The notes under the pieces: generated by a model
Databases searched by the model: none
What the model saw: only the letters and a program-made list of their open reading frames with translations
Told to the model about the DNA's origin: nothing
In this document: piece by piece, positions 20,130 through 56,033 of the stretch
Layout: every line of letters starts with the position of its first letter
Position numbering within the stretch: the stretch's first letter is position 1
Program-made: the position numbers and the translations under genes
Assembly (NCBI RefSeq): GCF_900110435.1
Contig: NZ_FODT01000003.1
Location: forward strand, 186,001-250,000
Direction of reading: 5' to 3'
Length of the DNA stretch: 64,000 nt
Origin: Rhodopseudomonas pseudopalustris
Lineage (GTDB): Bacteria > Pseudomonadota > Alphaproteobacteria > Rhizobiales > Xanthobacteraceae

Positions 20130-20203
20130 ACCGGTCCCGTCCCAACGCATCACCCGACGTTACGCCTTGACGCCGCAGCATCCAGCCCGCATGGCTGTCG
20201 CGT

Positions 20204-20630
20204 CAGTCGGCCGGACGGCCGCTCCGGCAAGCGCCGAAAGGCCGCCGGGGAGGAAAGTCCGGGCTCCATCGACATACGGTGCCGGATAACGTCCGGCGGG
20301 GGCGACCCCAGGGAAAGTGCCACAGAGAACGAACCGCTTCCCCCTCCCCTCGGGGTGGGGGCGAGTAAGGGTGAAAAGGTGCGGTAAGAGCGCACCGCGT
20401 CGCCGGCAACGGAGACGGCATGGTAAACCCCACCGGGAGCAAAACCGAATAGGGACGGCATCGCGGACAGTTCGCTTTCGGGCGATAACTCCGCAGGGCG
20501 ATGTCAGGCTCGCCGTCCGGGTAGGTTGCTCGAGGCCATGTGCAAACATGGTCCCAGAGGAATGGCCGTCACGTATCGGCTGCGCAAGCAGCCGGTGCCC
20601 TCCAGAACCCGGCTTACAGGCCGACTGATA
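20204..20630 (+). ncRNA. rnpB: RNase P RNA, class A
   Basis: This is the catalytic RNA of RNase P, which matures tRNA 5' ends. Helix P1 is formed by CAGTCGGCC at 20204-20212 and GGCCGACTG at 20619-20627, a perfect nine-base match. Conserved elements in order are GAGGAAAGTCCGGGCTCC, the CACAGAGAACGAACCGC region, GTAAGGGTGAAA, GTGCGGTAAGAGCGCACCG, GGTAAACCCCACCGGGAGCAA and the ending CCCGGCTTACAGGCCGACTGAT. The variable P12 arm is GC-rich (CCCCTCCCCTCGGGG). The exact ends are set by P1 and may be off by a few bases. Confidence 0.96.
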
Positions 20631-20691
20631 CTAATTCCGTCAAGCGTTTTCGGCTCTCTGCTTCACGTGGAGAAAACGCGGCAAGATGAAT

Positions 20692-48389: not shown

Positions 48390-48395
48390 GAGCCC

Positions 48396-48513
48396 GTTCC
48401 GAGGGGGGCTCCGACGAGGAGCTGAGATACCGCACGCTCGCTGCTTCGCTTGTCGAAGATCATGCGGGACCGCGGTGACCCTTTGAACCTGATCCGGGTC
48501 ATGCCGGCGAAGG
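48396..48513 (+). ncRNA. TPP riboswitch (THI element)
   Basis: The leader contains the conserved thi-box features GGGGGGCTC, GAGCTGAGATACCGC and GACCCTTTGAACCTGATC followed by CGGGTCATGCCGGCGAAGGGA. These are the pyrimidine-sensing and pyrophosphate-sensing arms of the TPP aptamer. The 3' AAGGGA lies 8 to 13 bases before the thiO start and probably doubles as ribosome-binding site. Bound TPP would then block translation of thiO, the usual Gram-negative mode. The variable arm between the two sensing helices is extended by about 30 bases. Confidence 0.96.
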
Positions 48514-48520
48514 GACAGGG

Positions 48521-49630
48521 ATGTATCAGACGATCCAAGGCCAAGGCGGGGCCGATTCCGCCGCTCATCAAGCCGCAATTGCACCTGTTGCGCCGGCCCC
48601 GGCTGACGCGACCTTGACCGGCGCCAAGCCCGATCTGCGCAAGGACGCGCCGGTCTCGGTGATCGGCGCCGGCATCGCCGGCGCCTGGCAGGCGCTGCTC
48701 CTGGCGCGCGCCGGCCGGCAGGTGACGCTGTACGAGCGCGGCGACCGAGAGATGACCCAGGCCACCAGCCATTGGGCCGGCGGCATGCTCGCGCCCTATT
48801 GCGAAGCCGAGGCCGCCGAGCCGATGGTCGGCCAGATGGGCCTGCGCTCGCTGGAAATGTGGCGCAAGGAATTCCCGGAGACCGCGTTCAACGGCTCGCT
48901 GGTCGTGGCCCATCCACGCGACCGCGCCGATTTCGAACGCTTCGCCAAGATGACCGCGGGCCACCGGCGGCTCGACGCCGATGGCGTCGCCGAGCTGGAG
49001 CCTGCGCTCGCCGGCCGCTTCCGCGAGGGCCTGTACTTCCCCGACGAAGGCCATGTCGAGCCGCGGCTGGTTTTGGCGCGACTGCATGAGCGCCTCGTCG
49101 AGGCCGGCGGCGCGATCCATTTTGAATCCGAAATGACGCCGGAAGAACTCGACGGGCTGGTGATCGATTGCCGTGGTCTGGCGGCCCGCGACAAGGCGCC
49201 GGAGCTGCGCGGCGTCAAGGGCGAGATGGTGGTGATCAAGGCCACCGAAGTGACGCTGTCGCGCCCGGTCCGGCTGATGCACCCGCGCTGGCCGCTGTAT
49301 GTCATCCCGCGCGAGAACAATCACTTCATGCTGGGCGCGACCTCGATCGAGAGCGAGGACGAACTCGTCACGGTGCGCTCGGCGCTCGAACTGCTCAGCG
49401 CCGCCTATGCGGTGCATCCGGCGTTCGGCGAAGCGCATATCGTCGAGATCGGCGCCGGGCTGCGCCCCGCTTTTCCCGACAATCTTCCGCGCATTTCCAT
49501 CGGCAACCGCCGCGTCGCGACCAACGGCCTGTACCGCCACGGCTTCCTGATGGCGCCGTCGCTCGCCGAGAAGGTGGTGGCCTATGTCGAGCGCGGCGAG
49601 ATCGACAATCAGGTGATGCGATGCTTGTGA
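48521..49630 (+). CDS. thiO: Glycine oxidase-like FAD enzyme ThiO
   Basis: ThiO oxidises glycine to dehydroglycine for the thiazole ring of thiamine. The 369-residue protein has a longer N-terminus than usual. The FAD-binding PVSVIGAGIAGAWQALLLARAG is at about residues 45-66, and SHWAGGMLAPYCEAE follows. PRWPLYVIPRENNHFMLGATSIES and EIGAGLRPAFPDNLPRI are typical of the DAO superfamily. The first 40 residues, rich in Ala, Gln and Pro, lie outside the fold. The start follows the riboswitch. It overlaps thiS by ten bases. Confidence 0.93.
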   Translation: MYQTIQGQGGADSAAHQAAIAPVAPAPADATLTGAKPDLRKDAPVSVIGAGIAGAWQALLLARAGRQVTLYERGDREMTQATSHWAGGMLAPYCEAEAAEPMVGQMGLRSLEMWRKEFPETAFNGSLVVAHPRDRADFERFAKMTAGHRRLDADGVAELEPALAGRFREGLYFPDEGHVEPRLVLARLHERLVEAGGAIHFESEMTPEELDGLVIDCRGLAARDKAPELRGVKGEMVVIKATEVTLSRPVRLMHPRWPLYVIPRENNHFMLGATSIESEDELVTVRSALELLSAAYAVHPAFGEAHIVEIGAGLRPAFPDNLPRISIGNRRVATNGLYRHGFLMAPSLAEKVVAYVERGEIDNQVMRCL

Positions 49631-54389: not shown

Positions 54390-54557
54390 TTCCCGCCGCG
54401 ATGTCTCTGCAAATCCTTTGGAGTTGTAAATATGAACGCGTTTGTAAACCCTTGAACCGGTGTGCTACGATTTATCGGTCGACACGCTGACGCAGTTTCA
54501 AACGGAAATGGCATTACTAATAATCCCGCAAGAAACGCAATTGGTCATACGTTGACC
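54390..54557. other. AT-richer spacer after the orphan gene
   Basis: No gene or structured element is recognised. Composition remains lower in GC than the surroundings, as in the orphan gene, so the acquired segment may extend to about 54550. Confidence 0.5.
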
Positions 54558-54659
54558 AGCCCGTAGGGCGGGTGAGCGCAGCGTAATCGGCGATTGCGCC
54601 GATACAAGCACTGTCGCCGCCCGGCGGGTTACGCCTTTGGCTAACCCGCCCTACGGGCT
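54558..54659. repeat. Long palindromic repeat with 16-base perfect arms
   Basis: The arms AGCCCGTAGGGCGGGT (54558-54573) and ACCCGCCCTACGGGCT (54644-54659) are exact inverses. The inner part contains ATTACGCTG-like and CGGCGGGTTACGCC blocks related to 53759-53832. Confidence 0.85.
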
Positions 54660-54754
54660 AAGGGCTCATCCGCCGCATCCCATGCAATCGCTTCCCGGCC
54701 GGTACGCCTTTAACTAACTCCGCCCTATGCGACTGCGGCAGCCGAAGAGCAAGC

Positions 54755-54826
54755 GTAGCCCGCATGAGCGAAGCGACATGCGGGGCATTGCAAGAACCCG
54801 CATCTCGCTTCGCTCATGCGGGCTAC
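54755..54826. repeat. Palindromic repeat with 22-base perfect arms
   Basis: The arms at 54755-54776 (beginning GTAGCCCGCATGAGCGAAGC) and 54805-54826 are exact inverse complements separated by 28 bases. The element would form a cruciform or a very stable RNA hairpin. Confidence 0.85.
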
Positions 54827-54872
54827 CAGATGCTACCAGCGCGCCTCCGCCCCGTTTCCGCAGTATCCGGCA

Positions 54873-54900
54873 TTGACTTTATTCCTAACCGATGTATCCT
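54873..54900 (+). promoter_or_regulatory. Sigma70-type promoter before the structured non-coding segment
   Basis: TTGACT at 54873-54878 and TATCCT at 54895-54900 are separated by 16 bases. The implied transcription start near 54907 falls just before the first helix of the structured segment. No protein gene follows on the plus strand. Confidence 0.55.
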
Positions 54901-54906
54901 CCGCCC

Positions 54907-55269
54907 GTCCTGTCCGTGAGGGGCGCTTCGCGAGGCGTCGTTGAGCGGGACAGATCATCTGGCTGGGCAACCAGCCGGATCAATGGCTCGGCGAAACCGG
55001 CGCAAGCTGGCGGAGACGGGTTGGATGCGGCGCCCGCGTCTCACGCCTCGCACGCGTGATCCCGGGCGGCTTCGGGCGAGCGGTCCGGGCCCACTACGGG
55101 GCTCCGCCACTCCACGATGGCTGTACGCATCCCAGGCGAACGGCGGGAAACCGTCGGGATGGCGAGCGGAACGCTCGCGCCTGGGAGCGGAAGAACCGTC
55201 CCGAAGCCGAACAAACGCCGCGGTGGGCGCGCCGAACGAGGCGTTGCGCGCTGACTTCATCTGAAGTCA
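54907..55269 (+). ncRNA. Candidate structured non-coding RNA, family not identified
   Basis: No credible protein is encoded here, yet the plus strand folds by eye into many perfect short helices, several with GNRA loops. GGCTGG-GCAA-CCAGCC is at 54961-54976. CCGGC-GCAA-GCTGG is at 54997-55010. CGCGT/ACGCG pairs 55035-55039 with 55052-55056. A three-way junction is closed by CCCAGGCG (55131-55138) and CGCCTGGG (55178-55185). It contains CGGCGG-GAAA-CCGTCG and CGAGCG-GAA-CGCTCG. TGACTTCA-TC-TGAAGTCA closes the segment at 55252-55269. The order of the first hairpins recalls, from memory only, HEARO/omega-type RNAs. A 107-residue open frame on the same strand has no protein-like character. Confidence 0.55.
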
Positions 55270-55607
55270 TCGCGAGCACCACCACCATCCGCGCCTTGGC
55301 GGCGCGCCCCCGCCCCTCGCTGCGACAGCGACGGGCGCACAGCTCGGGCGCGCTCGGCGCCGCGAGATCAATTCGGCGTGGCTGTTTGACAATCTAGTCC
55401 GGCGGGACGCGGCGACGAGCGTCGCTTGCGGCGGAGCTGTTTCCAGGAGTGCGCGATGACGCCGCCCGACACGCGACGAAGGCAAACCGCTCTGTCCACC
55501 GGCTTTGGCCGGCGCCTCGGGTCTTGATGGAATCAGAACCGAGGCGCTCGATTGATGTTCTGGGGCGTCGTCCGCGCGAACCGGCGTCCGCTTTGCTCAA
55601 AAACGCG
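55270..55607. other. Hairpin-rich non-coding stretch, possible extension of the structured RNA
   Basis: No gene is recognised. Short-loop helices continue: CGCTG-CGA-CAGCG near 55319, GGCGC-GCTCG-GCGCC near 55356 and GCGAC-GAGC-GTCGC near 55412. The arms GCGCCTCGG (55512-55520) and CCGAGGCGC (55539-55547) are perfect inverses. It ends before the stop codon of the exported protein on the other strand. Confidence 0.45.
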
Positions 55608-56033
55608 CTATCTCAGCCCGATCGCCAAGCCGCTGAGGTCGAGGTCCGCGATTAGGCCGACCTGCCGGCCGGAGAGTTCGAGCACCGCGCCCTTTTCGTT
55701 GCGCAGCACGATGGCGCGGGCGCCGACGCCGATCGCAGCGCCCGCGCCGACCGCGCCATAGACGCCGGCGACGTCGCGGGGCGAGCGGATGTTGCTGACG
55801 CGCCCATAGAGATCGGCCTTCGAGCCGCCGAACACCAGGCCGTAGGACAGCCCGCCGATCGACAGCGGGTAGCGCCGGCCGTTGAACGTCAGCGTGCCCG
55901 AGCCGCCGGAGCCGCCGATGATCCAGCCGCCCTTGAAGATCGTGAGCGAGATGCGGCCTTCGTCGGCACGCGCGGCGGTCGCGCCCGCCATCGCAAGCAT
56001 CAGCACGAACGCAACTCCGAACAATCGACGCAT
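55608..56033 (-). CDS. Exported small protein of unknown function
   Basis: The 141-residue product has a clear signal peptide (LFGVAFVLMLAMAGATAARA, cleavage near residue 22). A glycine-rich, beta-looking domain follows with GGWIIGGSGGSGTLTFNGR, RYPLSIGGLSYGLVFGGSKADLYG and ELSGRQVGLIADLDLSGLAIGL. The mature part is probably periplasmic. No named family is assigned. The start ATG 56033 has AAGGAGAG five bases upstream; the frame stays open a further 61 codons, which look non-coding. It ends next to the structured non-coding segment. Confidence 0.75.
   Translation of the reverse strand: MRRLFGVAFVLMLAMAGATAARADEGRISLTIFKGGWIIGGSGGSGTLTFNGRRYPLSIGGLSYGLVFGGSKADLYGRVSNIRSPRDVAGVYGAVGAGAAIGVGARAIVLRNEKGAVLELSGRQVGLIADLDLSGLAIGLR

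Follow-up and report, generated by a model that had tools for sequence, protein, structure and literature searches.

A dispersed chromosomal family of structured non-coding RNA elements with promoter-like and boxA-like sequences in Rhodopseudomonas and its relatives

Positions 54871-55402 on the + strand of a 64,000-nt stretch of the Rhodopseudomonas pseudopalustris genome (contig NZ_FODT01000003.1; this whole stretch is referred to as the window) hold one member of a dispersed, non-coding and strongly structured RNA family. The element consists of a promoter, a structured RNA body and a boxA-like word, and it is supported by a profile match, the sharp left edge of the aligned copies and the copy count. 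We hold with moderate confidence that it is a free-standing gene for a structured non-coding RNA and belongs to a chromosomal gene family, scattered in many copies, whose transcription signals resemble those of rRNA. Large structured non-coding RNAs of bacteria are a known kind as such; the novelty is the family itself, for which no homologue was found and whose combination of features is unusual, and the element adds this family, not a demonstrated mechanism.

Extent, fold and non-coding nature of the element

In the own genome, BLAST found 12 matches to 54860-55290; the segment 54890-55290 was matched in 21 of 61 genomes (the own genome and 60 relatives). Pairwise identity among 68 full-length copies ranged from 52 to 96% between the extremes, with a median of 72%, and a profile built from the fetched copies matched window positions 54872-55402 (nhmmer). 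The left edge of the full-length copies is the -35 sequence itself, and the flank 5' of it is generally not conserved. The right edge reads CGTGGCTGTTTGAcA and is formed by the boxA-like word in most full-length copies. The preliminary description of this DNA, made from the window alone, had placed the 3' end at 55269, but the element reaches further: conserved helices are present as far as 55366, the boxA-like word occupies 55380-55389 and profile similarity extends to 55402. Provided that its end lies just after the boxA-like word, the RNA would be roughly 480-500 nt long.

When folded as a single sequence, 54905-55272 reached -196.6 kcal/mol (z -3.15), and none of 100 shuffles was as low. 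The 5' part (A2, 36 copies), the centre (A3, 41 copies) and the 3' part (A1, 40 copies) were each aligned by sequence alone with MAFFT, consensus structures were derived by RNAalifold, and covariation was counted against 500 shuffles and against slid partners. Counted on the same alignments from which the structures come, on copies that are related and against shuffles that do not keep the phylogeny, 21 of 45 pairs in the 5' part were changed on both sides with 96.7% of cells paired, 31 of 47 in the centre with 94.6%, and 9 of 31 in the 3' part with 96.2%. All five measures lay above all 500 shuffles in the 5' part and in the centre, and three of five did so in the 3' part, where a large share of positions is invariant. 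The double-sided-change measure of the 3' part was reached by 37 of 500 shuffles and the measure of further pair types by 116 of 500, and these two measures, not clearly above the shuffles, count against our preferred reading. Sliding the partners by 1-3 columns lowered pairing to 25-53%. A structured RNA had been proposed at the outset, and covariation was found in its homologues in these three parts of the element. In the fold of the whole element, the 125 pairs that are more than 85% standard hold 837 G-U cells versus 68 A-C cells, therefore the + strand is the folded strand.

The 5' hairpin domain (54907-54951, +), with the outer stem GTCCT/GGGAC, is defined by the consensus fold, the A2 counts and helix mapping. 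Downstream of it lie, on the same strand, the hairpin CTGGCTGG-GCAA-CCAGCCGG at 54959-54978, in which the family loop is mostly GNRA and 4 of 8 pairs are doubly changed, and the stem 54986-54992/55015-55022 with its inner hairpin 54996-55011. In the latter structure (54986-55022, +) 9 of 12 pairs are doubly changed in the family and 10 of 12 are standard in the window copy. Two GCAA loops had been described earlier; the one at 54959-54978 belongs to a consensus helix with compensatory changes, but the second, near 55001, is not kept across the family. The stem 55033-55036/55063-55066 with the hairpin 55042-55058 (together 55033-55066, +) follows from the A2 and A3 counts and helix mapping, and the segment 55026-55038 is paired differently in the A2 and A3 folds, the two pairings being alternatives. 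The central domain (55068-55219, +), which holds the doubly changed pairs of A3, is built of nested stems 55068-55086/55193-55219, hairpins at 55087-55104 and 55106-55121, and a three-way-junction stem 55126-55138/55180-55189 with a GAAA hairpin at 55141-55156. This junction and its GAAA hairpin, both noticed previously, recur as consensus helices with compensatory changes, as does the previously noticed palindrome TGACTTCA/TGAAGTCA, which lies inside the helix 55247-55274. That helix is the covarying hairpin of the 3' domain (55223-55311, +), where a GTGGGCGCGCC/GGCGCGCCCCC stem encloses 55240-55295. The last structure is the terminal hairpin CTCGGGCGC/GCGCCGCGAG (55343-55366, +), which rests on the A1 fold and counts.

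The absence of a credible protein, claimed from the window copy, also held for the family: a conserved reading frame was looked for in 71 copies and not found. With a codon model trained on 33 long ORFs of the window, 68 of these 71 copies lacked any coding ORF that shared more than 120 nt with the element, and the other 3 had weak partial overlaps. The best stop-to-stop scores had a median of 0.24 and a maximum of 14.3 bits in 68 copies, and the 20 Bradyrhizobium copies scored from -4.3 to 10.0. Ten coding pieces of the window scored 9.1-72.0, a range that touches that of the element at the ends. With the coding frame absent and codon-bias scores low, we rejected a protein-coding reading. The ORF table lists small ORFs of 64-113 aa over the element, and its copies can be mistaken for small ORFs. 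Together, the covariation, the retention of a promoter at the edge in most copies and the lack of coding support the earlier suggestion of an unknown large structured RNA that would be transcribed from a promoter of its own.

The promoter and the boxA-like word

The sigma70-like promoter TTGACT-N16-TATCCT (54873-54900, +) was present as first described, with the -35 at 54873-54878 and the -10 at 54895-54900. It matches 9 of 12 consensus letters, and 0.1 sites that good are expected in shuffles of 54700-55700. Most copies carry TTGACA-N16-TATAGT or TATAAT at this place: in the 68 full-length copies, TTGACA occurs in 57, the 16-nt spacer in 63, TATAGT in 39 and TATAAT in 14. TTGACT and TATCCT are each found in just 4 of the 68, therefore the promoter of the window copy is weaker than most. 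Judged by the position of the promoter, transcription is predicted to start at 54906-54908 (+), some 7 nt past the -10. A perfect 12-nt palindrome (GGATTATAATCC or GGACTATAGTCC) encloses the -10 in 6 of 68 copies, and the Bradyrhizobium branch mostly has ACCGAAATTCGG just after the promoter; either sequence could be an operator.

The boxA-like word GGCTGTTTGA (55380-55389, +) is also present in the rrn leader of two genomes of the same genus. Within the terminal 80 nt of the 68 copies, all 10 letters were found in 49, 9 letters in 4, 8 letters in 4 and 7 or fewer in 11, whereas of 199 control windows taken further downstream one had 9 or more letters and six had 8. Thus 9-10 of 10 letters are present in 53 of 68 copies versus 1 of 199 control windows, and the 11 copies with at most 7 letters count against our reading. 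The draft R. pseudopalustris genome (G000) gave no 16S match, so the rrn comparison was drawn from two other genomes of the genus, G002 and G012. Their rrn leaders carry GGCTGTTTGACAAGTAAAGATGAAG about 250 nt before the 16S gene, and the word is therefore common to element and rrn leader in both of the two genomes with a 16S match. We call the word boxA because of its place in the rrn leader and its similarity to the gamma-proteobacterial consensus, given as GYTCTTTAANA in a report on boxA (PMC5725501), the host here being an alphaproteobacterium. The element and the rrn operon leader of the genus are alike in sharing the GGCTGTTTGACA-type boxA word; they differ in that no rRNA follows the element and its boxA word stands at the 3' end. 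An rRNA-derived repeat was rejected, the element profile having no match in the rrn regions of G002 and G012. In other genera the word was seen in five displayed copies from g6, g50 and g51 (one letter off in one), and it was absent from two f32 copies, one f16 copy and the Bradyrhizobium copies displayed, absences that likewise count against our reading.

If the element is a free-standing RNA gene, the RNA would be transcribed from its own sigma70 promoter and would fold into the 5' hairpin domain, the covarying multi-branched centre and the 3' domain, followed by the rRNA-type boxA. Most probably the body would form a defined particle, alone or with proteins. Through the boxA, the transcript or its transcription complex might be bound by NusB-S10 (Nus/SuhB), and the RNA would then be produced under the antitermination and folding regime that also governs rRNA. 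Since the boxA word lies 3' of the structured body, it cannot serve antitermination during the synthesis of that body, a point against our reading that leaves any role of the word conjectural. More specific, and in our view rather doubtful, is the proposal of a new bacterial RNA gene class, in many conversion-homogenised copies of a folded 500-nt RNA, that took over an rRNA control signal, the 3' boxA drawing NusB-S10/SuhB for rRNA-like folding or for titration. In the case of titration, ribosome synthesis would be tied to element dose through the antitermination machinery. A functional boxA word would mean that a non-ribosomal structured RNA gene family uses Nus factors.

No terminator-like site was found in 54700-55700. 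REP-type hairpin words stand just downstream of the element in 15 of 67 copies versus 3 of 68 upstream, and could mark the 3' end of the RNA. The word GTCAT[CGT], in one orientation, was seen downstream (up to 160 nt) in 38 of 67 copies and upstream in 16 of 68. Just upstream of the window copy are two palindromic intergenic repeats (54550-54675 and 54748-54834) of a kind also seen in further genomes of the genus; eukaryotic miRNA models that Rfam placed below threshold over 54550-54834 were dismissed as chance matches to inverted repeats. In several copies of G012, G002 and G001, another repeat, about 150 nt long, directly adjoins the left edge of the element.

Distribution and relatedness of the copies

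The family was surveyed with covariance models of the 3' part (R2) and the centre (R3). Of the 13 matches that R2 gave in the own genome, 7 scored above 80 bits; the other 6, at 45-56 bits, form part of a divergent subtype. Other genomes had 18 (G002), 21 (G012), 8 (G003), 5 (G004) and 7 (G010) matches, and G009 and G014, which also belong to the genus, had none. Not every species therefore requires the RNA, which counts against our reading. In larger searches, which used stricter filters and scored few candidates per genome so that the counts are lower bounds, and in which near-threshold matches may include chance hits, R2 matched at least 148 of 248 genomes and at least 29 of 47 genera of the family sample, and at least 22 of 397 genomes of the order sample, 7 of these outside the family. 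In the class sample, searched likewise, R3 matched at least 1 of 385 genomes, the own genome itself. An exact 20-mer of the 5' part was found in 43 stretches from named genomes, 42 of them Rhodopseudomonas and one Nitratireductor. This last record, from a Nitratireductor sp. MAG (L175, 4309-4328), lies outside the genus, and transfer or a misassigned bin is possible.

The sister branch g49, which we read as Bradyrhizobium, was found weakly by R2 and not by R3. At the DNA level, all 13 genomes of this branch had 2-55 matches per genome, in which the pieces of one copy may count twice. The left edge CTGTCA-N17-TATTC, read as promoter-like, is present in 14 of 20 copies, and in the consensus fold 25 of 195 pairs are doubly changed with 477 G-U versus 39 A-C cells. 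A dRNA-seq study of B. japonicum USDA 110 exists (PMC4842269), so transcription in the sister branch is directly testable.

Copies resemble others in their own genome more than expected. The nearest relative was in the same genome for 32 of 68 copies versus 5.6 expected, and none of 2000 label shuffles was as high. We compared copies at shared loci in 13 pairs, which remained from 17 pairs with one or both flanks in common after setting aside two outside the alignment and two with no second copy in one genome. In 10 of the 13 the two copies were less alike than either copy's best paralogue; the three exceptions, L018/L021, L092/L095 and L037/L089, lack this sign of concerted evolution and count against our reading. 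For instance, the copies beside a deaminase gene in G000, G001 and G002 are 76-90% alike, and each has a paralogue at 90-91%. These comparisons point to concerted evolution through gene conversion or to a turnover of copies at the same places; in the free-standing gene reading, gene conversion would keep the copies of a genome alike as it does rRNA genes. A deaminase ORF was identified by Pfam beside the L005 copy, and the gene adjoining these shared-locus copies is read as TadA. In some sets of copies (L017, L084 and L023; L043, L044 and L054) an upstream flank is combined with different downstream flanks in different genomes, a pattern suggestive of chromosome rearrangement by recombination between copies.

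Alternative readings and known RNA classes

The main rival is a selfish, non-autonomous mobile element that spreads with the help of its own RNA, either as a bacterial counterpart of SINEs or as a guide or scaffold. Here the structure would be selected for movement, promoter and boxA would serve the element, and the scaffolded protein would be encoded elsewhere. We regard this as a serious but minority possibility, and it may hold together with the reading as a non-coding RNA gene. It is favoured by the dispersed, multi-copy nature of the family and by the Bradyrhizobium genome G063, in which six full-length copies, at least 95% identical to the query over about 607 nt (itself included), stand at six places. 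Presence, absence and relics at comparable loci point the same way: the L002 locus has full or contig-cut copies in G000, G002 and G001 and short 3' remnants in G003 and G010, and no copy was detected in the fetched stretches of G004, G011, G012 and G015. At none of the loci examined did the intergenic DNA surrounding the element align well enough to reveal a clean empty site. In the own genome, three 3' halves of a divergent subtype that closely resemble each other (L132, L133 and L134) lie at contig ends, as if the assembly had been broken by repeats, a sign of recent copies.

Against a mobile element, copies recur at shared loci across species, and the Rhodopseudomonas-type set showed neither terminal inverted repeats (68 copies) nor target duplications (67 copies) in excess of partner-shuffled controls; among the 20 Bradyrhizobium copies one 8-nt word was shared versus none in three shuffles. 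No partner protein was encountered either. Reverse transcription of a transcript that starts after the promoter would, moreover, lose the promoter. The window copy had no match in a plasmid or a phage collection, and plasmid or phage cargo was rejected on this ground. A Bradyrhizobium copy matched one plasmid, of Bradyrhizobium japonicum, by a 72-nt fragment. The exact element 20-mer occurs in 2 viral-contig records. The first (L204, 690-1567) holds a full copy and, about 240 nt beyond it, a second 5' part; the second record holds only a partial copy. A viral-contig search with a neighbouring 167-aa ORF gave no match. MITEs are likewise dispersed, short and non-coding, and a MITE or IS-derived element was rejected as terminal inverted repeats and target-site duplications were not detected.

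A cis-acting leader, riboswitch-like or an attenuator, for the next gene would account for a promoter followed by a structured leader and a boxA word, and in E. coli a boxA in the 5' UTR is reported to control suhB (PMC5725501). This is nevertheless very improbable: among 65 copies with a called downstream gene, that gene is on the opposite strand in 42, the window copy included, as would be expected of a free-standing gene. On the upstream side, 32 of 56 copies have a neighbouring gene on their own strand.

A DNA-level hairpin repeat of the REP or attC kind with no RNA function appears just as improbable. The element does sit among palindromic intergenic repeats, and G-T tolerance on one strand would also fit a folded single DNA strand; however, the conserved promoter points along the strand that folds, G-U is tolerated 12 times as often as A-C, and the element has about 500 nt with a multi-branched consensus structure. 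Br-REP1 and Br-REP2, the closest repeats among those published, which like our element are intergenic and common to Bradyrhizobium and Rhodopseudomonas, are described as palindromes of 20-40 nt (PMC5082802). The Br-REP1 consensus and the first 18 nt of a published string containing Br-REP2 (PMC5082802) were absent from the window at up to 3 mismatches.

The preliminary description had called for a covariance search of all Rfam families. No Rfam 15 family, HEARO included, matched the element at gathering score, and the best sub-threshold matches overlapping or touching it scored 16.0 against a cut-off of 70 bits and 19.3 against 80. Rfam includes models of OLE, ROOL and GOLLD, and none of these matched. 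Like the element, these RNAs are large, multi-branched, covarying and non-coding; in contrast, the element is dispersed in many chromosomal copies with its own promoter and boxA word, and ROOL and GOLLD are described as encoded by prophages and phages, often near tRNA islands (PMC12286853). The literature searched contained no description of the family that we could find, and the main text of one structured-RNA survey does not name Rhodopseudomonas, Bradyrhizobium or Rhizobiales (PMC8632094). A covarying 500-nt RNA in so large a share of the family's genomes, at up to 21 places per Rhodopseudomonas genome, that has no Rfam 15 match is a gap in the bacterial RNA catalogue.

The order of the first hairpins had earlier been likened to that of HEARO/omega RNA (RF02033), and a guide RNA of this type, orphaned from its IscB/IsrB-family nuclease, would share with the element a large structured RNA in many intergenic copies; we consider it scarcely credible, as the 8 Rfam matches obtained for 54400-55700 at E up to 10 did not include HEARO, which also had no match in ten divergent loci at E up to 1 or in any of 31 whole genomes, the last a weak test in which the positive control gave no match either. 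Pfam assigned no family to two of the four ORFs beside the window copy, Ribonuc_L-PSP to one and ThiC to one; an HNH/RuvC-type nuclease family is thus absent from these neighbours, consistent with the earlier remark that no IscB-like gene is adjacent. Elsewhere in the window, the Rfam search placed an RNase P RNA at 20203-20632 (299 bits) and a TPP riboswitch at 48392-48532 (67 bits), both of them ordinary.
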